Shown here: piece after piece, positions 25,194 to 60,623 of the stretch
How positions within the stretch are numbered: position 1 is the first letter of the stretch
Layout of the letters: every line of letters begins with the position of its first letter
Source: Jatrophihabitans sp.
Lineage (GTDB): Bacteria; Actinomycetota; Actinomycetes; Mycobacteriales; Jatrophihabitantaceae
NCBI GenBank assembly: GCA_025963285.1
Contig: JAOPUX010000151.1
Location: forward strand, 1 to 64,000
Length of the DNA: 64,000 nucleotides
Reading direction: 5' to 3'
Position numbers and translations under genes: made by a program
The notes under the pieces: generated by a model
What the model saw: only the letters and a program-made list of their open reading frames with translations
Database searches by the model: none
Told to the model about the DNA's origin: nothing

Positions 25194-25219
25194 CTAATTT
25201 CTACAAAGATAACAAGTTT
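25194..25219. promoter_or_regulatory. Candidate shared operator, thiolase/hotdog divergent promoter
   Basis: An AT-rich stretch in GC-rich surroundings with core TTTCTACAAAGA (25198-25209). On the minus strand it reads GTTATCTTTGTAG, sharing the 9-mer TTATCTTTG with the sites near 55010 and 60609. It may be an operator, a -10 region, or both. Confidence 0.45.
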
Positions 25220-25263
25220 CTGGAGCAGGTCAAGCCTCTGCAGCGCGATGAACTGGGAGAGAA

Positions 25264-25875
25264 ATGGCGGAGCAGTCAGAGCACGAGCTACGCCCGGTCG
25301 GTGCCGATACGCTCGCCGACCTGGAACGCCTGGTCCGTGCCATACGCGCCTTGGAGAATGCCTACTCCGAAGCAAGCGTGCCGCCCGGCGTCGCGGGCGA
25401 GGTGGCCGCGACAATCGAGGCGCAGGTGGCCGTTCTTGCCCGCTTCGCCGCGCCGGAGGTCGACCGTGTGGCGGGACGGCGGCCTGAGCTGGAGGGCTTT
25501 GCACAGGTACTCGTCCCGCCGTTGACCTATCTCGAAACTAGCGAGGCGCAGATCAAGGCCGAGGTCACATGCGGGCCGCTTTACCTAGGCTCGGGAGCGG
25601 CCCTGCACGGGGGGGTGGCGCCGCTGCTCCTAGACGACGTGATGGGGCGCCTGGCCAATGGCAACCGCTTGGCTGACCCGGACGCCACCTCGACGATCCG
25701 CACGGCTTACCTGCACGTCAACTATCGGGGCCTCGCTCCCGTCGGACGCACACTCCAGGTACGTGCCTGGGCCGAGCGAACCGACGGTCGCAAGAGGTGG
25801 TTCGCTGCTGAGATCACCCTCGACGGGCGCGTACTCGTCGACGCCGAGGCGATGATCGTCCAACCGCGGCATTAG
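25264..25875 (+). CDS. Hotdog-fold thioesterase (PaaI/4HBT-like)
   Basis: A 203-residue protein with an alpha-helical N-terminal extension (1-75) and a C-terminal hotdog domain. The domain motif ALHGGVAPLLLDDVMG (about 118-133) matches the PaaI-type helix that carries the active-site Gly/Asp, and YLHVNYRGLAPVG matches the second strand. It would hydrolyse or bind an acyl-CoA, perhaps recycling CoA from dead-end intermediates. The start is ATG 25264, with GGAGAGAA immediately upstream. It is a single rightward gene divergent from the thiolase operon, ending 17 bases before the convergent hydratase gene. Confidence 0.88.
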   Translation: MAEQSEHELRPVGADTLADLERLVRAIRALENAYSEASVPPGVAGEVAATIEAQVAVLARFAAPEVDRVAGRRPELEGFAQVLVPPLTYLETSEAQIKAEVTCGPLYLGSGAALHGGVAPLLLDDVMGRLANGNRLADPDATSTIRTAYLHVNYRGLAPVGRTLQVRAWAERTDGRKRWFAAEITLDGRVLVDAEAMIVQPRH

Positions 25876-25892
25876 TGATCCCGCGAACGAGG

Positions 25893-26693
25893 CTAGCGGC
25901 GCCAGGACTTCGCGGGCTTGGCGTCTGTTCTGTCGAGCCCCGCGGTGCCCAGCGGATTCCCGACCTGGGTGTACAGCAGCGCCGTGCTCAACGCCTGAGA
26001 CCGCGCGACGTCGAGGGACTGCCAGATAGCCTTCACCGTCCCCTCGATCGCCGCCGGAGGCTGAGCCGCGATGGCGCGGGCAAGCTCCTGAGCGCGCTCG
26101 ACGACTTCGGCGCCGGCCAGCACCTCGGTGACCAGCCCGCATTGCAGAGCTCGGTCGGCCGTCATGCGCTCGTAGAGGCCCAGTAGCGACATCCGGAGTA
26201 CGTCGGACAGGTGCATTCGGTAGCTCATCGCGATCGGTTCGAGAGCGGCGACCAGCCCATAGGTGACATGCGGGTCGAAGAAGGTCGCATCCTCGGAGCA
26301 GACGACGATGTCGCACTCGGCGATCCAATAGAACGCACCACCAGCACACATGCCGCGGACTGCGGCGATGACCGGCTTCCAGAAATCATTGCGCTTGGGG
26401 CTCAGGTCGCGGCCCGGATCCTCGGTCTCGGCCCACGGACGGATCTGGTCGACCCAGGGACTGTCCGAACCCGAGATGCGCTCAGTGACGTCGAGACCGG
26501 TGGAGAACGCGCGCTCGCCCGCGCCGGTCAGGACGACTGCCCGGACCGCCTCGTCGTCGGCCAGATCGCGCCAGAGCCGCGAGAAGTCGGACCGCATCGC
26601 ATTGTTAAAGGCATTGAGCACCTCAGGGCGGTTGATGGTCACCGTCGCGATCCCGTCCGCGCGGGTGACCAGCAGGGTCTCGTAGGAGCTCAT
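25893..26693 (-). CDS. Enoyl-CoA hydratase/isomerase family protein
   Basis: A 266-residue crotonase-fold protein. VIAAVRGMCAGGAFYWIAECDIVV supplies the oxyanion hole, and FFDPHVTYGLVAALEPIAM occupies the active-site loop, where the usual Glu pair is not obvious. The reaction may therefore be hydration, isomerisation or C-C hydrolysis. It is last in an operon with three acyl-CoA dehydrogenases, overlapping the previous gene by four bases. Confidence 0.9.
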   Translation of the reverse strand: MSSYETLLVTRADGIATVTINRPEVLNAFNNAMRSDFSRLWRDLADDEAVRAVVLTGAGERAFSTGLDVTERISGSDSPWVDQIRPWAETEDPGRDLSPKRNDFWKPVIAAVRGMCAGGAFYWIAECDIVVCSEDATFFDPHVTYGLVAALEPIAMSYRMHLSDVLRMSLLGLYERMTADRALQCGLVTEVLAGAEVVERAQELARAIAAQPPAAIEGTVKAIWQSLDVARSQALSTALLYTQVGNPLGTAGLDRTDAKPAKSWRR

Positions 26694-27634
26694 AGGGCAG
26701 TTCTAACACGCTCGAACGGGCCGGCAAATGTTGTCTCGTCCACCAGCTCCACCAGCCTGGCCTCGGTCTGGCTCAGACCCCACGGCAGGCGCCGCAGCGT
26801 CTGACTGGAGCGAGAGAGCCACGAGATCGGGGTCTCGTCGCAGAACCCGATTGCTCCGTGGAGCTGATGTCCTGCGCGGAAGGTCGTGTCAGCGGTCTCG
26901 GTGGCTGCCAGCCGCAGGGCGACCGCGTCCACCATCGCCGCCGGACCACCCTTGATCGATGACCAAAGCGCGTACTTGGCCAGCTCAGCCAGCCCGTCAA
27001 CCGCGACCGCCACGTCAGTGAGTGTGAACTGGATCGCCTGGAAATGAGCAAGCGGGTGACCGAACTGGATACGTTCCTGCACGTAGCGGTACGTCAGTTG
27101 GCTCGCCTGCTCGACAAGTCCGAGGAGGGTCCAGCCCTGCAGAGTGATCAGGCGGGCGGCCTGATCAGTCTGCGTGTGCGTCCACGCGCCGGGGTTGGCT
27201 GAGCAGACGAAGCGGCTCAGCTTCCCGCCGAACGCGGCGCCCACCGTGGCTACCGGTGCGACGAATCCGCGGGAATCACAGAGCTGCCAGTCAAGATCGA
27301 GATCGAGGTGGGCCACGCGAGCTGGAGCGTCCCGATCGACGAGCGCCAATGCTGCGCGCGCTGGGTCAGCAGAAGACAGGCGCTCTGCGACCGGGTACGG
27401 CAGCGCATAGCGCCCAGCCGCCCGGCACACGGCTGCAGCCGCCTCAGCCTGTACCGGGTCGGCTGCCGGCTCCAGGTCCCATACCCCGAGGTTGCCGAGC
27501 ATCGCGGCGATCTTGTCCCGCTCGGCTGGTTCGGCATCGGCGTGCTGGGCCAGCGCGACACCGCCCGCACTCCGGATGGCCTCGTCGACCACTCGTCCGA
27601 AGCTCTCGGCCTCGGCCGACATGGCGGACCTCAT
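26690..27634 (-). CDS. Acyl-CoA dehydrogenase family protein, short subunit type
   Basis: A 314-residue protein with the C-terminal acyl-CoA dehydrogenase domain: RIQFGHPLAHFQAIQFTLTD and GHQLHGAIGFCDETPISW. The middle beta domain is reduced and there is no EIQR loop, as in beta-type partners of heteromeric dehydrogenases. The ATG at 27634 overlaps the preceding stop as ATGA; a second ATG lies 12 bases on. The long upstream frame to 27985 is spurious. It probably complexes with the adjacent 390-residue dehydrogenase. Confidence 0.85.
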   Translation of the reverse strand: MRSAMSAEAESFGRVVDEAIRSAGGVALAQHADAEPAERDKIAAMLGNLGVWDLEPAADPVQAEAAAAVCRAAGRYALPYPVAERLSSADPARAALALVDRDAPARVAHLDLDLDWQLCDSRGFVAPVATVGAAFGGKLSRFVCSANPGAWTHTQTDQAARLITLQGWTLLGLVEQASQLTYRYVQERIQFGHPLAHFQAIQFTLTDVAVAVDGLAELAKYALWSSIKGGPAAMVDAVALRLAATETADTTFRAGHQLHGAIGFCDETPISWLSRSSQTLRRLPWGLSQTEARLVELVDETTFAGPFERVRTAL

Positions 27635-28803
27635 CGTGCCGCCTCGCCCAAGAGTGCCCGCGACAGCAGGACGCGCTGCATCTCGATGCTCCCCGAGGCC
27701 ACTGTCGAGGCCTGGGCGTAGCGCCAATGATCCTCGACTGCTCGCGAGAAAAGATCCGTCTCGTCGTCCGTTCCGACTGCATCGGAGCCGATCACATCCA
27801 TCAGTACCTCGCCCACTTCTTGATCGAGTCTGGTGACCGCGATCCGATACGCGGCAGAGTCGCGCGGGTCGACGACACCGGTATCGTGTCGTTCGACGAC
27901 TCGGTGAGCCAGCAGCCGTGCCTGACGGGTATGGACAAGGGCCTTGACCCAGCGATGTTTGAGGGCACCTGGCAGTCGGGCCCACCGGTCGCCCAGAGCA
28001 TCCGGCGCCTCGTTCAGGAGTCGTTCGCAGCGGGCGTAGCGGGCGATGCCGACGCGCTCGAAGGCCAGCGCCTCGCGTACGACCTGCCAGCCTTGGCCGA
28101 CGGTGCCGAGGACGTCGGCCTCGGTGACCTGCACTCCGCTGAGAAAGACCTCATTGAGGTGATGCGGACCAAGCATGGCCGGAATCGGGCGCACCTCTAT
28201 ACCCGGGCGGCTCATGGGGACAAGGAACACCGTGATCCCCTGCTGCTTGGGGCCGGTATTGCTCGTGCGTGCAAGCAAGAAGATCCACTCGGCCATCGTG
28301 GCGTAGGACGTCCACACCTTCTGCCCGTTTACCTCCCAGCCGCCCTTGACGGGCCGAGCTGCGGTCTTGAGCGACGCAAGGTCGGACCCGGAGTCGGGTT
28401 CGCTGAACCCCTGGCACCAGATCACCTCGCCAGCGGAGATGGGAGGTAGATGGAGCTCCTGCTGAGCTGGGGTGCCGAACCGCATGATCGCCGGACCGAT
28501 CCAGTTCACGCCCATGTACTGCGCGCCGCGCGGCTCGTGCCGGGCCCACATCTCCTCGCGGAGCACCGTCAGCTCGCCGGAGTTCCCAGCGCGGCCGCCG
28601 AACTCCTCCGGCCACGCCAGGGCGAGGAGCCGGCGTTGCGCCAGCACCTTGCAGAAGTTCTGGGCCACGGCGAGATCGTTCTCGTTATGGGTGAACGCGC
28701 CGAGATAGGCCTCAGGGACATGTTCGTCGAGCAACGAACGGAGCTCACTACGAAGCTCGCTCTCCTCGGCGGTATCAGCGAAGTCCACAATTCCCTCTCT
28801 CAT
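27631..28803 (-). CDS. Acyl-CoA dehydrogenase, full-length
   Basis: A 390-residue FAD enzyme with LAWPEEFGGRAGN near the N-terminus, CQGFSEPDSGSDLASLKT, NGQKVWTSYATMAEW and a C-terminal ASGSIEMQRVLLSRALLG loop. The start is uncertain: ATG at 28821, ATG at 28803 and GTG at 28788 are all in frame. The last is closest to AGAGAGGG but with short spacing. It sits between a second full-length dehydrogenase and a short partner, within one leftward operon. Confidence 0.9.
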   Translation of the reverse strand: MREGIVDFADTAEESELRSELRSLLDEHVPEAYLGAFTHNENDLAVAQNFCKVLAQRRLLALAWPEEFGGRAGNSGELTVLREEMWARHEPRGAQYMGVNWIGPAIMRFGTPAQQELHLPPISAGEVIWCQGFSEPDSGSDLASLKTAARPVKGGWEVNGQKVWTSYATMAEWIFLLARTSNTGPKQQGITVFLVPMSRPGIEVRPIPAMLGPHHLNEVFLSGVQVTEADVLGTVGQGWQVVREALAFERVGIARYARCERLLNEAPDALGDRWARLPGALKHRWVKALVHTRQARLLAHRVVERHDTGVVDPRDSAAYRIAVTRLDQEVGEVLMDVIGSDAVGTDDETDLFSRAVEDHWRYAQASTVASGSIEMQRVLLSRALLGEAAR

Positions 28804-28830
28804 CGCGACGCCGTGTCGCATACATCGAAC

Positions 28831-30036
28831 TCATCCCCGTGGCACCTGACTCCATGCGACGTCCTTATCCACCCGCGGTTCACCCGGCAGTCGTAGTAGG
28901 CGCTCGCCGATGACGTTGCGGGCGATCTCTGAGGTGCCACCCTCGATGGGGTTCGCCCTGGCTCGCAGGAACGCGTTCTGCACGCCCGCATAGTCGAACG
29001 GACTGCGCGATGAGCGGGCAAGCGGATAGCCATCAGGTTTGAGTAGACCGGCCGGCCCCAGCACATCCAACGCGAGGGACGTGAGTTCGAGGTTGAGTTC
29101 GGCATCGCTCAGCTTGGAGATCCACCCCTCAGGGCCGGGCCCGCTGGCGTCATCGCGCGTCGCGGCTGAATGCGCGTTGAAGAGCCGCAGAGCTTCGGCC
29201 CGAATCCAGAGCTTCATCAGTTCGTCGAGCAGTTCTGGACGTGTGGATCCCTCCGACTGCGCGTCTTGCCAAGCCTGCATTAGGTGCCCGATCAGTCCCT
29301 CACCGCGCGCCGGGACCTGACCGCCGATCGCGACACGCTCGTTTAGCAAGGTGGTGAGGACGACGCGCCAGCCGTCCCCAACGGCGCCTAGCCGGTGCCT
29401 GTCCTGGACCACTACGTCGTTCAGGAAGACCTCGTTGAACTCGGCGTCACCGGTCATCTGATACAGCGGTCGGATCTCCACACCCGGAGCGGACATCTCG
29501 ACCAGGAACATCGTCAGGCCCTTGTGCTTGGGCTGGTCCGGGTCGGTACGAGCAAGCAATAGACCCCAGGCCGCCTTGTGCGCATAGCTCGTCCACACCT
29601 TGGCGCCGTTCACTACCCAGGAACCATCCGGAGCACGAACCGCGGACGTGGCCACCGAGGCCAGGTCGCTGCCTGCACCGGGCTCACTGAAGAGCTGGCA
29701 CCACACCTCCTCGCCCGTGAACAACGGACGTAGGAGGCGTTGGCACTGGTACTGCGTGCCGTGGTCGTGGATGGTCGGTGCGACCATGCCGACCCCGAGC
29801 GGATTGCCATGGAAGGCGACTGGGCTGCCTGCGGCGACGATGGCTCGTTCGACAGTCTGCTGGAGCGCCGAGCTCCCACCGATCCCGCCGTCGCCTGCTC
29901 GGAAATGTACCCACGCCAGCCCGAGATCGAACTGGCGTCCGAGGAACTCACTCGGGGTCTCAGCATTCTGGCCAGGATCGAGCAGCCGGGCCAACAGGCC
30001 GGCGATCTCGGGGCTCGTCATGTCGCTCGTGCTCAC
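28831..30036 (-). CDS. Acyl-CoA dehydrogenase, full-length
   Basis: A 401-residue enzyme with a short N-terminal helical region, CQLFSEPGAGSDLASVAT, NGAKVWTSYAHKAAWG, and the C-terminal NPIEGGTSEIARNVIGERLLRLP. The last motif is typical of FadE proteins acting on bulky acyl groups. It is the first gene of the leftward dehydrogenase operon. The divergent promoter region with the SDR gene holds an AT-rich operator candidate. The ATG start at 30036 gives a standard N-terminus. Confidence 0.92.
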   Translation of the reverse strand: MSTSDMTSPEIAGLLARLLDPGQNAETPSEFLGRQFDLGLAWVHFRAGDGGIGGSSALQQTVERAIVAAGSPVAFHGNPLGVGMVAPTIHDHGTQYQCQRLLRPLFTGEEVWCQLFSEPGAGSDLASVATSAVRAPDGSWVVNGAKVWTSYAHKAAWGLLLARTDPDQPKHKGLTMFLVEMSAPGVEIRPLYQMTGDAEFNEVFLNDVVVQDRHRLGAVGDGWRVVLTTLLNERVAIGGQVPARGEGLIGHLMQAWQDAQSEGSTRPELLDELMKLWIRAEALRLFNAHSAATRDDASGPGPEGWISKLSDAELNLELTSLALDVLGPAGLLKPDGYPLARSSRSPFDYAGVQNAFLRARANPIEGGTSEIARNVIGERLLRLPGEPRVDKDVAWSQVPRG

Positions 30037-30070
30037 GGAGGCAAGCTACCACGATCGAGTGATAACTCTA

Positions 30071-30089
30071 TAGTCTTTACAAGGATTGT
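30071..30089. promoter_or_regulatory. Candidate shared operator, dehydrogenase/SDR divergent promoter
   Basis: TAGTCTTTACAAGGATTGT with core TCTTTACAAGGA (30074-30085), an imperfect inverted repeat in an AT-rich patch between genes starting at 30036 (minus) and 30169 (plus). It is related to the cores at 25198, 36386 and 42598. Confidence 0.45.
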
Positions 30090-30168
30090 GCGAGGCTTTA
30101 CTGTTGGCTTGCCTCGCCATCCGTGATCACACCGAACGCGGATGCCCGCCACCGGAGGGTTCCCATCC

Positions 30169-30941
30169 GTGTTCGATGTGACCGCGGCCGCTGACCTGTT
30201 CTCCCTCAAGGGCAAGACAGCCGTCATCACGGGAGCTAGCGCTGGGCTCGGAGCCCACCTGGCCCGCGTCCTCGCCACCGCCGGCGCCCGCACCGCCCTG
30301 GTGGCGAGGCGACGTGACCTACTCGACAAGATCGTGGTGGACCTGCCGGGGTCGATTGCTCTCGAGGCCGATCTCGCTGATATCGACCAGGTCGACACAG
30401 TTGCCCGGCGCGCCCTCGACGAGTTGGGCAGGGTGGACATCCTCGTCAACAACGCGGCCTACATCGCCGGTGGGGTGAAGGCCGAGGATGAGACGAGCGA
30501 GCAGATCCAGCGCACCCTCGCAGTGAACCTGCACGCCCCGATCAGGCTTGGCCAGGCCTTCGTCCCGGGGATGTTCGCGGCCGGGTCAGGCAGCATCGTC
30601 AACGTCACCTCGATCGTCGCCCATGGCGGGATCGGACGGTTCCCACAGGCCACCTACGCCGCGACGAAGGGCGGGTTGGAGGCCCTGACCCGCGAATGGG
30701 CTGCCCAGTGGAGCAGGCGCGGAGTACGGATCAACAACCTCTCTCCCGGCTTCGTCGAGAGCGAGATGACCGAGCCCATCCTGGGCGATGAGAAGGTCCG
30801 CAGCTGGATCGCGGCGAACACCCTCATCGGCAGGCATGGGGTGCCTGCTGATTTCGACGGGGCACTGTTGTTCCTGGCCAGCGATGCGAGCCGGTACGTG
30901 ACCGGACAGACCCTCAGGGTCGACGGGGGATGGAGCGCACG

Positions 30942-30945
<4 letters not shown>
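30169..30945 (+). CDS. Short-chain dehydrogenase/reductase
   Basis: A 258-residue SDR with TGASAGLG (21-28), NNAA (94-97) and the catalytic YAATK (Tyr163, Lys167). ARR after the second strand favours NADP(H). The GTG at 30169 follows GGAGGG by nine bases and is preferred over the ATG at 30142. It is the first gene of a three-gene rightward operon, overlapping the next start by four bases. It likely acts on a hydroxy- or keto-acyl-CoA of the pathway. Confidence 0.9.
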
Positions 30946-33900
<2,955 letters not shown>

Positions 33901-35419: not shown

Positions 35420-35439
35420 GTAATCTAGTCAATGATTAC
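35420..35439. promoter_or_regulatory. AT-rich palindrome in the ALDH/VOC divergent promoter
   Basis: GTAATC (35420-35425) and GATTAC (35434-35439) form a perfect inverted repeat with an 8-base spacer in an AT-rich patch. It resembles a repressor operator but differs from the TCTTT-type sites of other island promoters. Confidence 0.4.
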
Positions 35440-35953: not shown

Positions 35954-36371
35954 CTGCGGCACGGTCGAGGAGTAACACCGGAATCTCGCGCTCGGTGCGG
36001 GTCTGGTACCGCTCGTAGGCAGGCCAGATCTCGTTCATCAGAGCCCAGAGCCGCGCCCGCTCGTCGCCGCGTGCTGTACGTGCCACGGCCTCGAAATGCT
36101 CGGCTCCGACCTGGACGGAGACCGCGGGATCAGCCTCGACGTTGGTGTACCAGAACGGATGCTGTGTAGACCCACCACGCGAGGCCACGACCACGAACCG
36201 GTGACCGTCCTCGCCATAAATCAGCGGCACCGACCGAATCTCACCGGATGCTCTCCCCCGGGTGAAGAGCACTAGGCAGTTCACCCCGTTCCAAAAATGC
36301 CCAATCTCTCCGTTCGTCGCCAGATAGCGTGCGACGTGGTCGTGGCCCATCATCGAGAAGTCTTTTGTCAT
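35934..36371 (-). CDS. Deazaflavin (F420)-dependent nitroreductase/quinone reductase family protein
   Basis: A 145-residue single-domain protein of the DDN family. The core has LVLFTRGRASGEIRSVPLIY, FVVVASRGGSTQHPFWYTNVEADPAVSVQVG and a C-terminal RTEREIPVLLL. Members reduce quinones or nitro compounds with F420H2 at the membrane face. The ATG at 36371 gives the family-length product; the frame to 36632 lacks similarity. It is divergent from the EthD gene across an AT-rich palindromic site. Confidence 0.85.
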   Translation of the reverse strand: MTKDFSMMGHDHVARYLATNGEIGHFWNGVNCLVLFTRGRASGEIRSVPLIYGEDGHRFVVVASRGGSTQHPFWYTNVEADPAVSVQVGAEHFEAVARTARGDERARLWALMNEIWPAYERYQTRTEREIPVLLLDRAAAKSSPG

Positions 36372-36385
36372 CGTGTGGCTCGCCC

Positions 36386-36397
36386 TTTCTTCGAAGA
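36386..36397. promoter_or_regulatory. Candidate shared operator, nitroreductase/EthD divergent promoter
   Basis: TTTCTTCGAAGA contains the perfect palindrome TCTTCGAAGA. It closely matches TTTCTACAAAGA at 25198 and TCTTTTCAAAGA at 42598, and lies 15 bases upstream of the nitroreductase start. Confidence 0.45.
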
Positions 36398-36473
36398 TTT
36401 CTGTTGCTATCCCGACGGTTCGCCGTAGATTGCAGAAGACGCAAGTCGAGGCTACTGAAATAGTGGAGAAGCC

Positions 36474-37749: not shown

Positions 37750-39045
37750 CTACTTAGAAGCCTTCACCGCTGCTGCCGTGATCGTGTCCAGGGCAGAGAC
37801 GTTGGACGCCGACGGGCAGGTCACGGTCAGACCGCCCGGAGTGGTCCACTTTCCGTTGACGACCTCGGCGGGGTAGAAGCAATAGGACGATGGCTGAGCG
37901 GCACCTGCCACGAACGACAGCGGCGGAGTGAGTCCGCCGAAGGTGTCGTTCTTGATCTGGCCCAGCGCGGTGATCAAGCTGGCGCTGGTGAGAGTGCCAC
38001 CCGAGGCAAGGGCAGTCGTCGCAGCCTTCTGGAAGATCAGCCCGGAGACCCACCCCTCAGCGGCGCTCTCGGTGATCGCCTTGCCCGAGACGTACTTTGC
38101 CATCGAGGCCCGGAAGCTAGCCGTGGCCGGGTCGGTCGAGAACCAAGGGAAATCTGGCAGCGCAGCCAGCAGCTTGGTGGAGCCGAGCTTGGACGGCAGA
38201 CTGTCGTTGGCCACGACGCCCGGAATGACGTAGGTCGGCTTGAAGCCCTGCTTGGCGCAGTCATTCGCAATCCGGATGACGGTGTTCGGGTCAGCGCCGA
38301 GACCGAGCGTCTGTACGCCGGCCTGCTTTGCGGCCAGGCATTCAGCGGTGTACGAGGGCTGGCTCAGGCTTACGGCTCGCGAGAAGACCGGGTCGGTTCC
38401 GGCGAGCTTGGCAACACCGCCCTTGAACAGGCTGGCGTTGGTCTCGGCGCAGCCCGGCGCCTCCTTGCAGTACAGGTACCCGAACTTCGTCTCGCCCGGG
38501 TTGTGTGCAGCCAGGCCCAGCGCATTTCCGATCACGGAACTGCCCTCGGGGAAGAGCATCGGGCTGTCGTTGTAGGAGATCGACGCGTTGTTCCCGCCGA
38601 TCACCGGCACGCCCTTGCCTTCGAGGAAGTTGATCCATGCCGGCGGGTTGATGTTGCCGTTACCGACAAACGCGACCACGTGGTCGTTGCCCACGATCTG
38701 CTGGATCTGCGAAGCCTCAGTCGTGGAGTCAGACTTGCTGTCGCCAGTGACGAGCTTGATCTTGTGGCCGGAGATGCCGCCGTTGTCGTTGACGTAGCCG
38801 ACCCAAGCCTTGACGCCGTCCAGGAACGGCCCGTTCGAGTCGGCCTGAGCGCCTGAGAGCGGGCTGACGTTGCCGATGACGATATCGGCGCCGGTTGTCG
38901 CCGCGCTGGTGCTCGAGCTTCCCGTGCTCGCGGGCGTCGACGCCCCAGAGCTGTCGCCCCCGCTCTTGCCGCCGCTGCTACTACACGCAGTTGCCAGCAC
39001 GGCGATCGCCACCGAGGCGATTGCCAGGTTCAACTTCCGATGCAT
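37750..39045 (-). CDS. Branched-chain-type ABC transporter substrate-binding lipoprotein (LivK-like)
   Basis: A 431-residue lipoprotein. The signal peptide ends at the lipobox LATA-Cys21, followed by a Ser/Thr/Gly-rich linker to about residue 50. The periplasmic-binding fold (type 1, Leu/Ile/Val family) starts DIVIGNVSPLSGAQ and runs to the end. In actinobacteria such proteins bind aromatic acids, steroidal acids, amides or amino acids. Its location suggests it binds the island's substrate outside the cell. It is the last gene of the transporter operon rather than the usual first. Confidence 0.92.
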   Translation of the reverse strand: MHRKLNLAIASVAIAVLATACSSSGGKSGGDSSGASTPASTGSSSTSAATTGADIVIGNVSPLSGAQADSNGPFLDGVKAWVGYVNDNGGISGHKIKLVTGDSKSDSTTEASQIQQIVGNDHVVAFVGNGNINPPAWINFLEGKGVPVIGGNNASISYNDSPMLFPEGSSVIGNALGLAAHNPGETKFGYLYCKEAPGCAETNASLFKGGVAKLAGTDPVFSRAVSLSQPSYTAECLAAKQAGVQTLGLGADPNTVIRIANDCAKQGFKPTYVIPGVVANDSLPSKLGSTKLLAALPDFPWFSTDPATASFRASMAKYVSGKAITESAAEGWVSGLIFQKAATTALASGGTLTSASLITALGQIKNDTFGGLTPPLSFVAGAAQPSSYCFYPAEVVNGKWTTPGGLTVTCPSASNVSALDTITAAAVKASK

Positions 39046-39104
39046 GGTTCAGTCCTCCAAATAGTTGAAGCGCGTACAGAGATGTCCGAGATGATTGGCG
39101 TTAC

Positions 39105-39821
39105 CTAGGTCGAGCGGCTCTGCTCCAGATCGCCCTCCAAGTAGCGTTCGAACAGCTGTTCCTGGCTGCCGAGTTCGTTGGGAGCGCCGGAGTACACCAG
39201 CGCTCCGCGCTGCAGGACGTAGACGTGCGAGGCGAAGCGCAACGCGTGCGTCACGTACTGCTCGACGACGAGTACGCCGATGCCCTCGGAGACGATGCGG
39301 CCGAGGAAGTCATAGATCTCATCGACGATGACGGGGGCCAGGCCCAACGAGGCCTCGTCGATGAGCACAACAGACGGGTTACTGACGACCACCCTGCTGA
39401 GCGCAAGCATCTGCTGCTGGCCGCCCGAGAGACTGCCTGCGCGCTGATTGAGATGCTTCGTCAATTGCGGGAAGGCACTGAGCCCTCTCTCGACCGCAGT
39501 GCGCTTACCGTCGGAGCCGGCAAACAGCATCATGTTGTCGCGTACCGACAGACCTGGGAAGACACCCCGTCCCTCGGGGATATGACATACCCCCGCCCGC
39601 GCGATGGCATGCACACTTTGTGCGGTCGCGTCGACACCGTCGATGATCCTCGCCCCGCTGCGCACGGGAAGGAGGCCACAAATCGTCCGGATCAGCGTGG
39701 TCTTACCTGCGCCGTTGGGACCGACCACAGAGACTGCCTGCCCGGCCGAGACTTCGATTGAGACTCCGCGGAGCACAGTGCTGTCCCCGTAGCCGGCTAC
39801 TGCCTCGCGTAGCTCAAGCAT
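39105..39821 (-). CDS. ABC transporter ATP-binding protein (LivF-like)
   Basis: A 238-residue ATPase with Walker A GPNGAGKTT, the LivF-type GRGVFPGLSVRDNM, signature LSGGQQQMLALSR and Walker B VVLIDEASLGLAP. The ATG at 39821 overlaps the LivG stop by eight bases; the frame to 39944 is upstream noise. It energises import together with LivG. Confidence 0.94.
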   Translation of the reverse strand: MLELREAVAGYGDSTVLRGVSIEVSAGQAVSVVGPNGAGKTTLIRTICGLLPVRSGARIIDGVDATAQSVHAIARAGVCHIPEGRGVFPGLSVRDNMMLFAGSDGKRTAVERGLSAFPQLTKHLNQRAGSLSGGQQQMLALSRVVVSNPSVVLIDEASLGLAPVIVDEIYDFLGRIVSEGIGVLVVEQYVTHALRFASHVYVLQRGALVYSGAPNELGSQEQLFERYLEGDLEQSRST

Positions 39822-40605
39822 CGGAACCCGCCGGCACGTCAGTGAGCTCCTGGCCGAGATACGCAGCCCTGACCAGCGGGCTCGTGAGCGTCTCCGACAT
39901 CGTTCCTTCGAAAATCTTGATGCCGAAGTCGAGCACGTAGACATAGCGGCAGACCCGCGAGACCAGGCTCATGTCATGCTCCACAAGGAGCACGCCGATC
40001 CCTCGATCGCGCACGATCGACTCCAGCACCGTGCCGAAGCCTTCGGTCTCACGCACGTCGAGGCCTGAGGACGGTTCGTCCAGAAGCAGGAAGCGAGGCT
40101 CGTTTGCGATGGCCCGGGCGAACTCGACGAGTCGGCGCTGCCCGGTCGACAGGTTCCGCACGGTGCGATCCCGCAGCTCCTCGATGCCACACGCGTTCAG
40201 TGCGTCGCGCGTAGCGGCCTCGCACTGACGTCGGCTGGCCGGGCTCGAGACGAATTGGGTCAGCCAGGTGGTCCCAGCCGCCTTCGCCTCCCGACCCATC
40301 GATACGTTCTCCTCGACGGTCAAGGTGTCAAACAGGCGCATTCGCTGGAAGGTCCGTGTCATGCCCAGTCGGCTGCGTCCCACGGCGCCCTTGCGGGTCA
40401 TATTGACCCCGAAGAGGTGCTGCTCACCGGCTGACTTGACCACGCCGAAGCACGCGTTGAGCGTTGTGGTCTTACCCGCTCCGTTCGGGCCGATCAGCCC
40501 GGTGACAGAGCCTGCTGGTGCACTGAGCGACACGTTCGAGACGGCGACATGCCCTCCGTAGCGGACGGTGAGATTCTCGACGGTGAGCCCAGTGTCGGTC
40601 GTCAT
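39814..40605 (-). CDS. ABC transporter ATP-binding protein (LivG-like)
   Basis: A 263-residue ATPase: Walker A GPNGAGKTTT, signature NLSTGQRRLVEFARAI, Walker B FLLLDEPSSGLD and the H-loop VEHDMSLVSRVC. The AFQRMRLFDTLTVEENV-type Q-loop region (here TFQRMRLFD) is typical of LivG. It is coupled to the permease by a four-base overlap. Confidence 0.94.
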   Translation of the reverse strand: MTTDTGLTVENLTVRYGGHVAVSNVSLSAPAGSVTGLIGPNGAGKTTTLNACFGVVKSAGEQHLFGVNMTRKGAVGRSRLGMTRTFQRMRLFDTLTVEENVSMGREAKAAGTTWLTQFVSSPASRRQCEAATRDALNACGIEELRDRTVRNLSTGQRRLVEFARAIANEPRFLLLDEPSSGLDVRETEGFGTVLESIVRDRGIGVLLVEHDMSLVSRVCRYVYVLDFGIKIFEGTMSETLTSPLVRAAYLGQELTDVPAGSDA

Positions 40606-42512: not shown

Positions 42513-42597
42513 CTGTCATCCCTCTGCGTCTGCGATTGAGCGGGGCGACTGAGACAGCCCCGCAGGCCCGTGAGTGCTCGTGCTCGCAGGACGCTAA

Positions 42598-42609
42598 TCT
42601 TTTCAAAGA
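42598..42609. promoter_or_regulatory. Candidate shared operator upstream of the transporter operon
   Basis: TCTTTTCAAAGA, a perfect TCTTT/AAAGA inverted repeat with a two-base spacer, flanked by more A/T (AATCTTTTCAAAGAATATAG). It lies 86 bases upstream of the TTG start of the permease. It is the most symmetric member of the island motif. Confidence 0.5.
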
Positions 42610-42694
42610 ATATAGTCAAGCGAAAAAGGTTGCGTCGGTCACAGTCGTCGCGCAGTAGCCACTACAGCCCGATGACAGCCCCGTGAAGCTGCAA

Positions 42695-43968: not shown

Positions 43969-44030
43969 GCGAATCCCCTAGTGCGCGAGGTTTGAGGCGT
44001 CAGGCGAACTCCTGAGCATGGCATTGTTAT

Positions 44031-44055
44031 TATTATAGTTTTTACGTATCTTACG
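44031..44055. promoter_or_regulatory. AT-rich divergent promoter, amidohydrolase/P450
   Basis: An extended A/T run (TATTATAGTTTTTACGTATCTTACG) within the 111 bases between the divergent starts at 43968 and 44080. It resembles the other island sites in base composition, but the TCTTT/AAAGA symmetry is weak (TTTTTACGTATC, 44039-44050). Confidence 0.35.
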
Positions 44056-45315: not shown

Positions 45316-46170
45316 TCAGTCGAAGTAGACGACGAAGCGCGCTTCGATGCTGGCCCGCGGGTGCAGCGGCCCTAGTTCGTCCGGCATCCGGAACGAGGTG
45401 TGCAGCACGTTCACCTTGTTCGGCTTGCGAGAGTCGAACCCGTTGAAGACGAGCACTTCAGCTTCGTTCATCCCGGAGAAGTAGAACCAGCGCTGGTCTG
45501 GAGACGGAGTCCCAAGACGCAGCTCAAGACTGTTGCCCGGCACGTCCTCGGGGCCGATGACACTGTCGGCAACCATCCAGAACGGCTCTTGGACCGTCCG
45601 GCCATCACACAAGGCCAGCATCGAGTCGTGCTCAGGCTCCGACACCGCGCGCCAGGTCTGAACGATGGCAAACGGGCTACCCGCCGGCACCACGCCGTCG
45701 GGGTCCTCTGCGGCCCGAACCAGATCGGCCATGGTGGCCGCCGACACCTCGGTGTAGTCCAGGTGTGCGAAGCCGGCAGGCTTTGCCACCTTCTCAGCGA
45801 TCGTGCCGTCAACGCGTCGCAGTAGCAATCCGCTGCGCTGCGGCAGGACGTGGGCGGCACCTGTAACGGTGCGGACAAGCTCGATCATGTCTGCGTGATA
45901 GTCACGGTCGAGCACGTCGACGTCAGTCGAACTCGCGTGTTCGCTGCGGTGATCGACGAGCTCGAAACCGTTCTCACCAAGCGAGAGCGTCTCGCGCAGG
46001 GGCCGTGCGTCGTAAATCTCGACCGTTTCGGGCGTCAAGGCCATATTGGTCTTTTCTCGCTGGTAGCTGTCGTAGCGAGCGCGCCCGTCGACGGGAGCTC
46101 CGAACTTGACGGTAGCCGTGACTGAGGTCAATCCGGCGGTTGACAGAGATCCCTCGTCAGTGCGCGTCAT
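45316..46170 (-). CDS. CmcJ/NvfI-family oxidoreductase (Fe/2-oxoglutarate oxygenase-like)
   Basis: A 284-residue protein with the layout of CmcJ/NvfI and fungal AsaB-type hydroxylase/desaturase proteins. Features are the N-terminal VTATVKFGAPVDGRARYDSY, a mid-protein QTWRAVSEPEHDSMLALCDG, then RWFYFSGMNEAEVLVFNGFDS and the C-terminal VLHTSFRMP and PRASIEARFVVYF. Relatives perform oxidations in natural-product pathways and some lack clear iron ligands, so the reaction cannot be assigned. The ATG at 46170 follows GGGGAG closely. It diverges from a SnoaL-like gene. Confidence 0.72.
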   Translation of the reverse strand: MTRTDEGSLSTAGLTSVTATVKFGAPVDGRARYDSYQREKTNMALTPETVEIYDARPLRETLSLGENGFELVDHRSEHASSTDVDVLDRDYHADMIELVRTVTGAAHVLPQRSGLLLRRVDGTIAEKVAKPAGFAHLDYTEVSAATMADLVRAAEDPDGVVPAGSPFAIVQTWRAVSEPEHDSMLALCDGRTVQEPFWMVADSVIGPEDVPGNSLELRLGTPSPDQRWFYFSGMNEAEVLVFNGFDSRKPNKVNVLHTSFRMPDELGPLHPRASIEARFVVYFD

Positions 46171-46185: not shown

Positions 46186-46211
46186 TAATACCTTTAAAGA
46201 ATAGTAGTATT
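46186..46211. promoter_or_regulatory. Candidate shared operator, CmcJ-like/SnoaL divergent promoter
   Basis: AT-rich stretch with core CCTTTAAAGA (46191-46200), nested in a wider inverted repeat AATAC (46187-46191) and GTATT (46207-46211). The spacing of the core differs by two bases from the 42598 site. Confidence 0.4.
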
Positions 46212-47546: not shown

Positions 47547-49090
47547 GTGGACCGGGTGCCCGCACCCGGGTAGTTACCGCCGCCGTGGACTCGGTCAAGT
47601 TCGTCGTAGTCGATCTCTGAACCGGCGCGTGGCAAGCTGACGTGCTGGAAGTGGAATTGACGGGCGATCTTGTAGGGCGCCAGCCGAACACGACAGTGAG
47701 CTGTGAGTTCGGCCTCCAACTCCGGCCCGGCCACGACACCGTCGGCCAGCACGATGACAGCCATTACCCGCTGGATCCATACCTCGTCCGGAATGCCCAA
47801 CACCGCCGCCTCTGCCACCGCGGCGTGCTCGGAGAGACAGCGCTCCACCTCGGTGGCGTAGATGTTCTCCGCGCCGGACTTGAGCATGCGTCCCATCGGC
47901 GAGACGAAGCTGATGCTGCCATCGCGGTCTCGACGGCCCAGGTCGCCGGTGTGCCACCAGCCTCCGCGGAAGCGGTGCATGTTCAGAGCGGGGCGATTCC
48001 AGTAGCCCCGGTGCACGCTCGGTCCGCGCACCACGATCTCCCCGAGTTCGTCCACGCCGCATTCACGCTCAGCCGCATCGACGATCCGCACTTCGGCATA
48101 GGGCGCAGCACAGCCGGAGGTCGACGAGGCGTCGGCTCGGCCCAGTGCGGAGAGCACCGCCATGTTGGTCTCGGTCTGGCCGTAACCACCCGTTCGCCGT
48201 CCCCAGGGGCTGTCGTCCCGAGCTACGAGGTCGGTCCAGCCCGGTAGGTCCAGGTTGCTTCGCAGGCTCGACAGGTCGACGGGGCGCTCGCGCGCGATTG
48301 CCAGCATCGCCTCGGCTGTCGGCCTGACCAGATAGGCGTGCGTACACCGGTACTGCTCGACGGCCGCGCACAGCCTCTCCGGATCAGGCCGCCCGACCAT
48401 CACGTTGGTGCCGCGGAACTGGAAGGTCGGGAGGATCGAGAACAGCGCGGCGATGTGGAACAGCGGTGCGCTGGCGAGGTTCACGGTACTGGCGTCGATG
48501 TGCTGGAGCGGCCCGAGAACGAGTGCCGGGATGAGCAGGTTCCGGTGCGATAGGAGCGCTACCGGGTTGTCATTGGTTGCCGAAGCCACAACCATTGCGA
48601 GAACTGGATCGTCGGGGTTCTCGACGTGCGCTGGGCGGCTCGCCCCAGCCGCAGCGTGGACGCGGGCCTCGTACCCATCAGGGCCCACGCCATCGTGCTG
48701 GATCCACTCAGCGCCGAGCGCCTGCGGTGCAACCGCATCGACGAGCTCCTTAAGTTCGCGCTCCTGCCAGACGATCACGCGCGGCGCCAGGTCGGCGGTG
48801 ATCTGGCCGAGTTCTGCGGCCGGCTGACGCCAACTCAGGCTGCAGAGCGTCGCACCGATCCGGCCGGCTGCGACGAGGATCTCCAACCAGCGATGACAGT
48901 TCTGTCCGAGCCAGACCACCCGGTCTCCAGGCACGACTCCGGCCATCGCCAGCATCGCGGCGACCGCGTCGACGCGCTCATCGAGCTCGGCATAGGTGAG
49001 GCTGTCACCCTCGCACACCACGGCCACGGCTGATCCCGCTGAGCGCGCGTTCTCGCCGAGTACCGAGCCGAGCGTCCATCCTGAGTTCAC
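47543..49090 (-). CDS. AMP-dependent ligase-like protein with degenerate catalytic motifs
   Basis: A 515-residue ANL-superfamily protein. The fold motifs A5 (GGYGQTETN), A7 (WWHTGDLG) and A8 (GRMLKSGAENIYATEVE) are intact. The A3 phosphate loop is altered to ASATNDNPVALLSH in place of TSGTTGxPKG (residues about 169-182), and the C-terminal A10 motif reads LPRAGSEIDYDEL, without the Gly-Lys that supplies the catalytic lysine. It may not adenylate in the standard way, or may work with the partner genes. The start is GTG at 49090 (GTGA overlap). Confidence 0.85.
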   Translation of the reverse strand: MNSGWTLGSVLGENARSAGSAVAVVCEGDSLTYAELDERVDAVAAMLAMAGVVPGDRVVWLGQNCHRWLEILVAAGRIGATLCSLSWRQPAAELGQITADLAPRVIVWQERELKELVDAVAPQALGAEWIQHDGVGPDGYEARVHAAAGASRPAHVENPDDPVLAMVVASATNDNPVALLSHRNLLIPALVLGPLQHIDASTVNLASAPLFHIAALFSILPTFQFRGTNVMVGRPDPERLCAAVEQYRCTHAYLVRPTAEAMLAIARERPVDLSSLRSNLDLPGWTDLVARDDSPWGRRTGGYGQTETNMAVLSALGRADASSTSGCAAPYAEVRIVDAAERECGVDELGEIVVRGPSVHRGYWNRPALNMHRFRGGWWHTGDLGRRDRDGSISFVSPMGRMLKSGAENIYATEVERCLSEHAAVAEAAVLGIPDEVWIQRVMAVIVLADGVVAGPELEAELTAHCRVRLAPYKIARQFHFQHVSLPRAGSEIDYDELDRVHGGGNYPGAGTRST

Positions 49091-49803
49091 GATGGCGCAA
49101 TCAGGCGGCCGAGGGAGCGGCCGAGGGAGCAGCACTCCGGCCGGCCGCCCGCATCGAGTGCACCCGACACGTCGAGTGCGCTGAGGGACTCGTGGCGGAT
49201 CGGACGGCTGGACAGTTCCGCCCTGCCTGAGGCCGACTGAATCCAGGCCGATCCGTTGACATGGGCCAGGCCATTATCGGGACACGTCAGGGCGAGCGCG
49301 GGCCCCAGCGCGGTGACCACACCCTGAGCCACGTCGAGCTCCGCGGCGAGCACGGCTGCTTCGGGACGGGCCAGCATGAAGCGCAGCCCCGATTCGAGCA
49401 GGCCCTCGCGTACCAGCGCCGGGCCAAGTGTCGAATCCAGACCGATGACCGCCGCGATCGTGAAGCGACGGAAGAACATCCCTGCTCTGCCGATCTCGAA
49501 CTCAGCGGGTTCTAGCGGGCACACCGTGGCGCCAAGACTGTTGAGGGCATCGATGATCGGTCCGTACAGGGCGGCCTCGTGACCAGTGGAGATGACCACG
49601 ACGAAGTCGCCCGCACTCACACCCCATGCCGCGAGGACCGTCTGGGCCCAGGCAATATCGTCGGCCCAGTCCGACCAGGACACGACGTAGTCGACGAGGG
49701 TCTCCCCGTCGGCGTACTGCGCGATGCAGCGCTCCGCCGAACGCGGGATCGCCTCCAGCGCCTCGAGGATAGGTGCCATGGTGGTGAGGTCGACGGAGCT
49801 CAA
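49087..49803 (-). CDS. Standalone N-terminal ANL-ligase-like protein
   Basis: A 238-residue protein resembling only the N-terminal region of acyl-CoA ligases. TLVDYVVSWSDWADDIAWAQTVLAAWGVSAGDFVVV is the opening helix-strand unit and YGPIIDALNSLGATVCPLE the next. No A5, A8 or A10 motif follows. It lies between a PaaK-like ligase and a degenerate ligase with four-base overlaps on both sides, so it is not a decayed fragment. It may be a subunit of a split ligase. No specific family name can be given. Confidence 0.6.
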   Translation of the reverse strand: MSSVDLTTMAPILEALEAIPRSAERCIAQYADGETLVDYVVSWSDWADDIAWAQTVLAAWGVSAGDFVVVISTGHEAALYGPIIDALNSLGATVCPLEPAEFEIGRAGMFFRRFTIAAVIGLDSTLGPALVREGLLESGLRFMLARPEAAVLAAELDVAQGVVTALGPALALTCPDNGLAHVNGSAWIQSASGRAELSSRPIRHESLSALDVSGALDAGGRPECCSLGRSLGRLIAPS

Positions 49804-55004: not shown

Positions 55005-55024
55005 ATACGTTATCTTTGAGATGA
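55005..55024. promoter_or_regulatory. Candidate shared operator/-10 region, P450 operon and racemase
   Basis: TATACGTTATCTTTGAGATGA region with TTATCTTTG at 55010-55018 and core TCTTTGAGATGA (55013-55024). The 9-mer recurs at 60609 and, on the minus strand, at 25204-25212. It lies between the divergent starts at 54954 and 55059. Confidence 0.45.
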
Positions 55025-55058
55025 ATCGTTGTCGAGCGTTGAGACGGATGGATAGTCC

Positions 55059-56120: not shown

Positions 56121-57300
56121 TCTCCCGCCAGCTCACACCCGCAGGATCGACGGGAGCTGCCGCAGCCGGTGTGACGTCTGGTTGGGCGCGGCCGACCAGC
56201 TTGATCGGCGAGGGCAACTGGTCGGCGCCGAACACTGCCGCCGGCAACCAGGGCATCCGATGACGGAACTGAGCCACCTCCCCAGCCTCGTCACGAGCGG
56301 TGACCGGCGCCAGGCTCAGACCATGCTCCTCAGCCAGCGCCAGCCACTCGGCTACGGTCCGCTGGGCGAAGACGGCGCGCAGAGCATCCGCCAAGTCGAC
56401 ATCGCCGGCTGCGTCGTCGGCCCCCGGCGCCCCGGGCCAGCGCTCGGCCAGCTCAGCACAACCGGCGACGGCGCAGAACTGGATCCAGAACTTCTCCTCC
56501 AGCGCCATCAGGTAGACGAACCGTCCGTCCGAAGTCGGGTAGACCTGCTGTCGCACCCCGTCGATCAGACCGCCCATTCCTGCTGGCCTGCGCCGACCTC
56601 CGTCGGCCGGCAGCCCGGTCACGTCGCTGTCCGGGCGGTGGTAGGCCTGAGCCGTCTCAATCCGGTACCAGTCGAATGCCGCGGCCGCGTCGGCCTGAGC
56701 CACGTCGAACTCGTGACCCCGCCCGGTGGCCCGCGCCTCGATCACCCCGGCCAGGATGGCCAAGGCTCCATAGAGCGGTCCGGCATTCAGCCCGATGGAC
56801 GGTTGGTCGGCGAAGTGCCACCGTCCGTCGGCGCCCTCGACAGGGTCCAGGATGCCCGGGAGGGTGTCGAAGGCGACGGCGTGGGCCGGCATGTCGCGCA
56901 TCGGACCAGTGAGCCCGTACCCGGTTAGCCGGCACAGGACCAGGCGCGGGTTGGCGGCCCACAACGCTGCGGCGGTCAGCCCGCGGCGGTCGAGCCCACC
57001 GGGCCGCATCGCTTCGACCACCACATCGGCCTCGGCCGCCAGCTCCAAGAATCGATCACGGCCAGGCGCCTCACGCAGGTCGAGGGCTATGCAGCGCTTT
57101 CCACGGTTCACATGCAGATGCATCAACGACGTCCCGTGAACCAGTGGCCAGCTGGCCCCCCGAATCGGGTCCCCGTTGGGGGGCTCGATCTTGATGACGT
57201 CGGCCCCCAGGTCGGCCAGTGGCGTCGATACCGCGGCGGAGTCGTAGAGCGACGCCTCGAGAATGCGCACGCCGGCGAGCGGTCCACGTCCTTCACTCAT
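56095..57300 (-). CDS. CaiB/BaiF CoA-transferase family protein
   Basis: A 401-residue family III CoA-transferase-fold protein: LAGVRILEASLYDSAAVSTPLADLGADVIKIEPPNGDPIRG at the start and LVLCRLTGYGLTGPMRD. TGRGHEFDVAQADAAAAF follows. Where transferases usually have a catalytic Asp (P-x-x-D-x-x-A-G), this one reads PSIGLNAG, so the Asp appears replaced by Gly; the alignment is by eye. It may be an inactive partner of the tandem transferase upstream. The ATG at 57300 is chosen after GGGCGGG; the longer frame overlaps the previous gene. Confidence 0.85.
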   Translation of the reverse strand: MSEGRGPLAGVRILEASLYDSAAVSTPLADLGADVIKIEPPNGDPIRGASWPLVHGTSLMHLHVNRGKRCIALDLREAPGRDRFLELAAEADVVVEAMRPGGLDRRGLTAAALWAANPRLVLCRLTGYGLTGPMRDMPAHAVAFDTLPGILDPVEGADGRWHFADQPSIGLNAGPLYGALAILAGVIEARATGRGHEFDVAQADAAAAFDWYRIETAQAYHRPDSDVTGLPADGGRRRPAGMGGLIDGVRQQVYPTSDGRFVYLMALEEKFWIQFCAVAGCAELAERWPGAPGADDAAGDVDLADALRAVFAQRTVAEWLALAEEHGLSLAPVTARDEAGEVAQFRHRMPWLPAAVFGADQLPSPIKLVGRAQPDVTPAAAAPVDPAGVSWREISAASDSR

Positions 57301-57316
57301 CGCAGACACCCGCCCG

Positions 57317-59692: not shown

Positions 59693-59746
59693 GCGGTTCC
59701 CTCTCTCTGCCACGAATCGGCATGGTATTTATTCATTTTCGGGAAC

Positions 59747-60268
59747 TCATGCTTCGATCAGCCGGGCGGAGGAGGCGAAGGTTCGGGCCATCTCCATGTA
59801 CTCCGCAGATCCCGCTCGGACGAGGTCACCCACCCAGTCCGCAGGCTTGATTCGAGCCGGGACGCCCACCGCAATGTGCCCTCGGGGGACACAGAGACCC
59901 TCGGTCACAAGAGCCTGAGCAGCGACGGCAGCTTCATCCTCGATGACCGCCCGGTTCAGCACCACGGACCCCGATCCGATCAGGCAGTCTGACCCGACGT
60001 CGCACCCCTCCAGGTGGACGAGATGGCCGACGATGGTGCCGTCGCCAACCACGGTCGGCCGAGCCCGGATGCAGTGCAGCACGCTGCCGTCCTGGATCGA
60101 GGCCCCACTACCGATGACTATCTCGCCAAAGTCCGCGCGAAGAACCGCACCCGGCCAGATCGACGAGCCGGCCCCGATTGTGACTGCCCCGATCACCGTC
60201 GCGGCCGGGTGTACGAACGCATCCCGATGAATCCTGGGCGCCTTGCCAGCGAGCTCCCACACTGCCAT
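59747..60268 (-). CDS. Gamma-carbonic-anhydrase-like hexapeptide-repeat protein
   Basis: A 173-residue left-handed beta-helix protein: HPAATVIGAVTIGAGSSIWPGAVLRADFGEIVIGSGASIQDGSVLHC, with imperfect hexads to about residue 125, then a helix. His ligands of the trimer interface are partly visible (VLHCI, VGHLVHLEGC). Relatives include gamma carbonic anhydrases and PaaY, a thioesterase-like accessory of phenylacetate degradation. In a CaiB operon a CoA-hydrolysing role is as plausible as CO2 hydration. ATG 60268 follows the preceding stop by two bases. Confidence 0.85.
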   Translation of the reverse strand: MAVWELAGKAPRIHRDAFVHPAATVIGAVTIGAGSSIWPGAVLRADFGEIVIGSGASIQDGSVLHCIRARPTVVGDGTIVGHLVHLEGCDVGSDCLIGSGSVVLNRAVIEDEAAVAAQALVTEGLCVPRGHIAVGVPARIKPADWVGDLVRAGSAEYMEMARTFASSARLIEA

Positions 60269-60270
60269 GG

Positions 60271-60573
60271 TCAATCGCTCGCAGGGAGCGCGCGGGTCTC
60301 AGCGAGCTCGAGCGGAACTCCGTCAACACTCAGCTGTCCGACACCGGGCTTGGTCACCAGTACCTGAAGTGCACCGCCCGAGCCGTCGTAGCGCTTGCCG
60401 ATCAAGTTCGCTGCCTCGGCATCGAGGTGCAGTCCGAGCGCCGGCTCGGCCGCGATCTCGATCATGGGATGTCCCCCGCATTCCAGCAGGGCCTCGACCT
60501 CGGGCGCCCGAGTGACGATGATCTGGCTCTCGCACACCTGGCTCTTCATGCGCTGGCCCACCTTCAGCAACAT
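60271..60573 (-). CDS. Conserved small protein, operon leader of the CaiB set
   Basis: A 100-residue soluble protein: MLLKVGQRMKSQVCESQIIV, then a Cys in LLECGGHPM, and the C-terminal LIGKRYDGSGGALQVLVTKPG and LSVDGVPLEL. Two Cys (about residues 14 and 32) and the CGG turn suggest a small metal-binding or beta-barrel fold. I have a sense of similar proteins next to actinobacterial CoA-ligase and transferase genes but cannot name the family. The ATG at 60573 has GGAGG seven bases upstream. The longer frame to 61341 is antisense to the SDR gene. Confidence 0.72.
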   Translation of the reverse strand: MLLKVGQRMKSQVCESQIIVTRAPEVEALLECGGHPMIEIAAEPALGLHLDAEAANLIGKRYDGSGGALQVLVTKPGVGQLSVDGVPLELAETRALPASD

Positions 60574-60600
60574 GCTTGACCTCCAGCAATTGACACGGGA

Positions 60601-60623
60601 TATTCCTATTATCTTTGTGACAA
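60601..60623. promoter_or_regulatory. Candidate shared operator/-10 region, CaiB operon and SDR-P450 operon
   Basis: TATTCCTATTATCTTTGTGACAA with TTATCTTTG at 60609-60617 and core TCTTTGTGACAA (60612-60623), lying 13 bases upstream of the SDR start. It shares the 9-mer with the 25204 (minus strand) and 55010 sites. Confidence 0.45.

Follow-up and report, generated by a model that had tools for sequence, protein, structure and literature searches.

An AT-rich 18-bp motif in the promoters of a tRNA-Phe-bordered catabolic island of Jatrophihabitans sp., candidate operator of an FCD-type GntR regulator

The catabolic island and its recurrent promoter motif

The DNA analyzed here, referred to as the window, is the first 64,000 nt of contig JAOPUX010000151.1 from Jatrophihabitans sp. 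(assembly GCA_025963285.1; the genome is denoted G000). It carries a catabolic gene island, a GntR-family regulator with an FCD domain encoded at the island's left end, and an AT-rich motif that recurs in the island's promoter regions. This motif is specific to the island promoters, and in other genera it has been conserved next to the regulator. From these sequence comparisons, we estimate a probability of about 0.85 that the motif is the 18-bp operator of the regulator, with the consensus TAATCTTTNNAAAGATTA and the core ATCNTTNNAANGAT.

Genes were called with a codon-usage script, intergenic regions were listed, and products were annotated with Pfam and NCBIfam. The 45 genes called between 16.5 and 63.3 kb include acyl-CoA dehydrogenases, a thiolase, a FadB-type enzyme, CoA ligases, CoA-transferases III, P450s, short-chain dehydrogenases (SDR) and a branched-chain-type ABC transporter. 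Among them, Pfam shows a single DNA-binding regulator, the GntR protein at 16570, and only two genes lack a Pfam match. The first of these (45316-46170, minus strand) encodes a CmcJ/NvfI-family oxidoreductase (NF041278) and lies behind the operator at 46186; the second (49087-49803, minus strand) encodes a predicted protein of 238 aa within a P450-headed operon.

An earlier note on this DNA, made by eye, had listed seven AT-rich strings (here a to g) and three copies of TTATCTTTG, all of which lie exactly where it placed them. To score sites independently of the window, a hold-out matrix (A2) was built from 16 sites of G003 (a genome of the same family but another genus), Pseudonocardia, Nocardioides and G012. 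With this matrix, six of the seven strings score 13.5 to 25.4 and belong to the motif, string c has to be dropped, and two sites absent from that list were found, at 35421 and 44027. The note had rightly described an AT-rich palindrome; however, the repeated unit measures 18 bp, and in most copies the palindrome is imperfect, with 3 to 7 of the 9 pairs complementary. The exact core has no match in G000, its sites each being imperfect. Of the nine divergent regions between 16.2 and 60.7 kb, seven carry a site, and another site stands at the head of the transporter operon. The remaining two divergent regions have no good site: one is the gntR promoter, in which a similarity to site b was seen by eye, and the other, 36354-36473, contains string c. 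The least certain copy, at 44027, has 7/16 mismatches to the consensus and overlaps two good sigma70-like promoters.

Scanning 257,457 nt of G000 with A2 gave nine hits of at least 9. All are intergenic and inside the island, and they mark eight sites or promoter regions, since two hits overlap (35421/35430). A score of at least 10 was reached in 8 of 19 island upstream regions and in none of 93 others (Fisher 1.6e-7). As A2 favours A+T, the 19 regions were also shuffled 1000 times with dinucleotides preserved. A mean of 0.25 and a maximum of 3 regions then reached 10, compared with the 8 observed, and region by region the observed score was attained in at most 0.3% of shuffles. In a second control (239,828 nt, 124 upstream regions), two upstream regions reached 10, one at C9:18815 and one on contig C13; two more hits (10.2 and 9.4) lay outside upstream regions. 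Altogether the matrix scan covered about 0.5 Mb of the 4.2-Mb genome, whereas patterns were searched in all of it. Thus the site precedes several transcription units and is rare elsewhere in the genome, as expected of a regulon operator.

The motif was also recovered de novo by palindromic expectation-maximization (EM) at width 18 without a prior motif, for which fewer starts were used on shuffled than on real sets. The 19 island upstream regions yielded TaATctTtNNaAagATtA with a log-likelihood of 79.1, compared with a mean of 41.9 and a maximum of 47.5 for 8 dinucleotide-shuffled sets. Forty control regions gave other motifs, at the level of their shuffles or a little higher (47.9 vs 46.8; at width 16, 44.5 vs 37.3).

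As in tRNA-integrated genomic islands, a direct repeat of the tRNA 3' end, here 50 bp and exact, stands at the far side. The two repeat copies, about 49 kb apart, bracket the GntR gene, its proposed targets and all eight operators (Table 1). The GC content is 0.658 between the copies, and 0.699 and 0.692 outside them. No integrase was found by Pfam among the 45 called genes, small or uncalled reading frames not being included in that scan; 15925-16521 and 15921-16229 gave no integrase match either. The latter (minus strand), at first a suspected integrase, instead showed a weak match to Pyr_redox_2.

Table 1. Features of the island and hold-out (A2) scores of the sites. Letters refer to the strings of the earlier note; genes named beside a site flank it, with their strand between brackets.
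Feature	Position	Strand	Score	Remarks
tRNA-Phe	15447..15523	+		left island end; ARAGORN
50-bp repeat, left copy	15477..15526	+		exact direct repeat of tRNA-Phe 3' part
Weak candidate site ACAACTTGTAAAACTTTA	16428..16445		6.8	gntR promoter region
GntR-family regulator with FCD domain	16570..17415	+		proposed operator binder; start given as 16525 in the earlier note
Operator TAATTTCTACAAAGATAA (a)	25195..25212		22.9	thiolase operon (-, 17412-25179); thioesterase-like gene (+, 25264)
Operator TAGTCTTTACAAGGATTG (b)	30071..30088		22.4	acyl-CoA dehydrogenase operon (-, 25893-30036); SDR/acyl-CoA dehydrogenase/NMO operon (+, 30169-33049)
Operator TAATCTAGTCAATGATTA	35421..35438		17.0	3 mismatches to consensus; aldehyde dehydrogenase/SDR (-); glyoxalase-like gene (+)
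String c	36386..36397		-1.1	not a motif member
Operator TAATCTTTTCAAAGAATA (d)	42595..42612		25.4	best copy; head of ABC-transporter operon (-, 37750-42512)
Possible operator TTATTATTATAGTTTTTA	44027..44044		16.2	amidohydrolase gene (-); P450 gene (+)
Operator TAATACCTTTAAAGAATA (e)	46186..46203		16.9	CmcJ/NvfI-family oxidoreductase (-); SnoaL-like gene (+)
Operator TTATCTTTGAGATGAATC (f)	55010..55027		13.5	P450 operon (-); CoA-transferase III gene (+)
Operator TTATCTTTGTGACAATGA (g)	60609..60626		15.3	20 nt before SDR/P450 operon (+, 60637)
50-bp repeat, right copy	contig C149 64506-64555 (L041:506-555)			beyond the window

Co-occurrence of the motif with the GntR regulator

G003 encodes two homologues of the GntR regulator (59% and 58% identical), at 229 and 259 kb of contig C4. 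They stand at both ends of a shared gene block and bracket homologues of many window genes, including NMO (64%), acyl-CoA dehydrogenase (67%), the transporter (46-51%) and an enoyl-CoA hydratase (72%, the match covering part of a longer protein). The same site is visible in many intergenic regions of this genome. Five sites of the window (a, b, d, f and g) were combined into a matrix, strings c and e being left out because of their spacing. In the G003 island, this matrix scored at least 16.7 in 8 of the 16 upstream regions; among 22 other G003 regions it did so in one (267739). In the controls from G000, 1 of 74 regions reached 16. Because the other half of the island regions score low, ranking all regions gave only marginal significance (P 0.03 and 0.05). 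EM on G003 returned a TAATCTTTNNAAAGATTA-like consensus (100, against a shuffle maximum of 38). Hold-out thus worked both ways, from the window to G003 and from other genomes to the window, which strongly supports the proposal that the motif is a regulon operator. A search for syntenic relatives with the CoA-transferase as query yielded no close homologue, the best one reaching 40%.

Of 397 genomes of the order, 61 encode an orthologue of the regulator (E <= 1e-45). The 18-mer with up to 3 mismatches is absent from 334 of the 397. It was found at 5 sites in G000 (4 in the island) and at 4 sites in G003 (all in the island). G144 and G333, which belong to one genus and are therefore not independent, have 3 sites apiece, none of them farther than 22 kb from GntR. 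G012 has none, despite two GntR homologues. The exact core, whose open position was taken from the clade-set EM result, gave 38 sites in the 61 GntR-positive genomes. Of these, 22 lie within 25 kb of GntR (0.46 expected) and 8 within 1 kb, with Poisson values that ignore shared ancestry. The other 336 genomes hold 74 sites, or 0.22 per genome compared with 0.62 in the GntR-positive ones.

Pooled GntR neighbourhoods of Pseudonocardia, Blastococcus, Nocardioides and Nocardia, some loci being near-copies, again gave a TAATCTTTNNAAAGATTA-like motif by EM (127 vs 48). Of seven further clade sets, four returned a related motif: the set f14 (4 regions) gave the same motif as the window, f12 gave CAATCCTTATAAGGATTG, f9 gave CCATCATTATAATGATGG, and f7_g18 together with one f7_g75 locus gave CTATCNTTATAANGATAG. 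The operator is thus conserved in promoters of orthologous genes, both in the G003 island and in the clade sets. An intergenic site of at least 10 was present in 11 of 16 loci, the exceptions being L083, L084, L166, L180 and L181. Because the site accompanies GntR in related bacteria, it is very probably the docking site of this protein.

Weighing the alternatives

Several observations weigh against assigning the motif to this regulator. Half of the window sites have at least 4 mismatches to the consensus, and the gntR promoter of the window has just the weak site, which might possibly serve autoregulation. A good match lies outside the island, at G000:C9:18815-18832 (L184:10816-10833; score 18.5), and is followed after 50 nt by a MASE1/PAS histidine kinase gene. 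Beside the Blastococcus orthologue (61-64% identical), no site was found in the neighbourhoods L083 (3.5 kb), L084 and L166 (up to 20 kb), which appear to represent one locus twice, nor anywhere in the Blastococcus genome G331. Over all 79 loci, 40 hits were obtained for a permuted-matrix maximum of 39 (mean 14.85), so that only close clades stood out, and core matches are sparse in Mycobacterium (3 in 62 loci, compared with a mean of 0.4 and a maximum of 2 for permuted matrices). Three of the seven clade sets (f7_g30, f16/f3 and f16_g67/g36) gave no motif, although the f7_g30 genomes carry exact core sites on the GntR contig all the same. Finally, the preference for repression over activation comes solely from operator position.

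The motif could be a true operator read by another protein, either a regulator encoded elsewhere in the genome or the product of an island gene without a known domain; two island genes, 45316 and 49087, have no Pfam match. The Blastococcus GntR without nearby sites and the weak site at the gntR promoter would fit such a binder. Moreover, FadR-type GntRs do not usually bind an AT-rich palindrome of even length that lacks GT/AC. However, the exact core lies at most 35 bp from GntR in five genomes (upstream in G202, G296 and G336, past its 3' end in G056 and G064), and the sites follow GntR into clades that share few other island genes. We therefore consider another binder unlikely and infer that GntR binds the site, as the earlier note had proposed, from this co-location with orthologues and from its position as the sole DNA-binding regulator detected by Pfam.

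The strings might also be ordinary sigma70 -10/-35 elements that are conspicuous in a GC-rich genome, and the earlier note had allowed that part of the signal could come from -10 elements. That part of the suggestion holds: by a lax consensus and with no chance control, 7 of the 8 operators in the window and 4 of the 9 in G003 overlap sigma70-like hexamers. At 25195, TATCTT stands at -10 distance from TTGACC; the site at 42595 sits within the spacer of TTGACT-N17-TAGCGT on the minus strand. The A2 matrix does respond to AT-rich DNA, as on contig C13 (L191, 3320 bp, no called gene), with 15 hits of at least 9 in 3.3 kb. As a sufficient explanation, however, plain -10 elements were rejected and are largely refuted. 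TTATCTTTG has three copies in the whole 4.21-Mb genome (about 2.3 expected anywhere from base composition; one occurrence when read backwards), all in island promoters, and therefore is no generic -10 box. Moreover, none of the 93 other upstream regions reaches 10, the second control adds just C9 besides the AT-rich C13, composition-preserving shuffles fail to yield the motif, and the site is palindromic and tracks GntR. Promoter elements as the whole explanation thus appear very improbable.

Contig C13 has 37.8% GC, compared with about 68-69% in the sampled stretches of G000, and may be a contaminant.

Simple patterns were also counted. Palindromy alone was not enriched: 16 twelve-mers had at least 5/6 pairs, compared with 11.7 after shuffling, and 49 of 300 shuffles attained that count. 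TCTTT-N0-4-AAAGA with up to 2 mismatches occurred 15 times compared with 2.7 (0 of 300 shuffles), but as this motif was picked after the fact, we rely on the hold-out tests. The 14-mer ATCTTTNNAAAGAT with 2 mismatches was discarded as unspecific in G000 (16 sites, of which the island holds 3; reversed control 10); elsewhere, 6 of its 10 G003 sites lie in the island (control 0), and G012 has 9 sites (control 8). A calibrated profile, R1, held too little information: its 4 matches at E <= 10 in five genomes are two G003 sites counted on both strands, with none in G000. Chance resemblance among strings chosen by eye in AT-rich intergenic DNA, to which the insignificant palindrome counts and the unspecific 14-mer lend some colour, is refuted by the shuffles and by hold-out tests on data unseen by the earlier note, and has a negligible probability.

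Recognition residues and proposed control

The regulator has a winged-helix GntR domain (PF00392, 53.1 bits, cut-off 27) and a C-terminal FCD domain (PF07729, 49.6 bits, cut-off 24.3). Its predicted model (mean pLDDT 87.0) matches NanR, VanR, LldR and FadR structures in Foldseek with modest TM-scores; no solved structure was close at E <= 1e-15, and 12 matches were weaker. His161, His214 and His236 are invariant in 23 orthologues, and FCD histidines of this kind bind metal.

The helix-turn-helix (HTH) departs from the canonical one. The canonical FCD regulators L005, L024 and L025 of these genomes read LPPER and NanR aligns as LPSER, whereas LPxQ[ED] stands here in most members of this clade; LPPQA and LPREA are among the exceptions. 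Among the loci fetched the clade is mostly actinobacterial, with a typical HTH of LPxQ[ED]xL...REALRILExEGL. From the alignment with NanR and the register of NanR to FadR, Gln42, Glu43 and Gly53 of the window regulator would correspond to Glu34, Arg35 and Arg45 of FadR. Arg35 and Arg45 of FadR read G according to excerpts of PMC4494728. The window regulator, with Glu43 and Gly53 instead, thus lacks the G-reading arginines of FadR (HTH positions 28 and 38). At HTH position 38, the regulators of the window, G003 and Pseudonocardia have G or A, with ATCTTT in the site; f12 has Y with ATCCTT, f9 has K with ATCATT, and Mycobacterium has L with mixed sites. This hints, from few clades and from sequence only, that the residue may shift along with the variable position of the operator; clade f7_g30 has Y, yet mixed sites.

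Searching the literature, we found no description of this GntR subtype or of its operator; looking for the operator string itself brought up one plant paper, which is unrelated. As far as the excerpts of PMC4494728 (Suvorova et al. 2015) go, FadR-subfamily (FCD) regulons share with the present system the winged HTH and FCD architecture and AT-rich palindromic operators. The consensus that most of them share is given there as TKGT/ACMA, in which 2-3 nt separate GT from AC, whereas the core ATCNTTNNAANGAT and the consensus TAATCTTTNNAAAGATTA have no such box. The box has known exceptions and so is not strictly defining: BioR (TTATMKATAA) and NanR (TGGTATAW direct repeats), likewise FadR-subfamily members, are named in the same excerpts as departing from it. 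The BioR site also begins with TTAT but is shorter (10 bp), the NanR site is a direct repeat, and their biotin and sialic acid targets are unrelated (PMC4494728, in part). AlkR of Pseudomonas aeruginosa (GntR/VanR) is another FCD-type GntR that represses a hydrocarbon/lipid catabolic gene, from an operator covering the -10 regions of its target (PMC12042122, excerpts). Unlike the window operator, its site ATTGTCAGACAAT has the canonical GT/AC; its effectors are C16- and C18-CoA, and its target set is not a whole island (same excerpts).

The distance from an operator centre to the closest start codon is 20-92 nt, and repression by occlusion is the best-supported reading. A GntR dimer, with one half-site per monomer, would repress, and a single operator in a divergent promoter would cover the promoter and serve both operons. 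A pathway compound would free the repressor, and the genes for uptake, CoA activation, P450 and acyl-CoA oxidation would be turned on together. Since homologues of the acyl-CoA dehydrogenase at 27631 (56-71%) are the most widely shared close GntR neighbours among the 20 loci compared, the core function is probably acyl-CoA oxidation.

More broadly, it seems likely that an FCD-GntR clade with replaced base-reading residues recognizes a new class of operators, NNATCNTTNNAANGATNN, in which the variable position changes together with the residue at HTH position 38, and that it governs nearly the whole tRNA-Phe-bordered island as a self-contained, transferable regulon. A guess from raw sequence thereby becomes a testable regulon of an 18-bp operator, eight target promoters and one regulator. 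The proposed non-canonical DNA-recognition group inside the GntR family is a data set for residue-base reading, and in Pseudonocardia, Nocardioides and other genera, promoters that carry the site beside an orthologue can be placed under the same control. The regulon also gives a handle on unstudied catabolic genes, the effector of which should be a pathway substrate or intermediate, and it suggests that pathways of this kind move together with a switch of their own.

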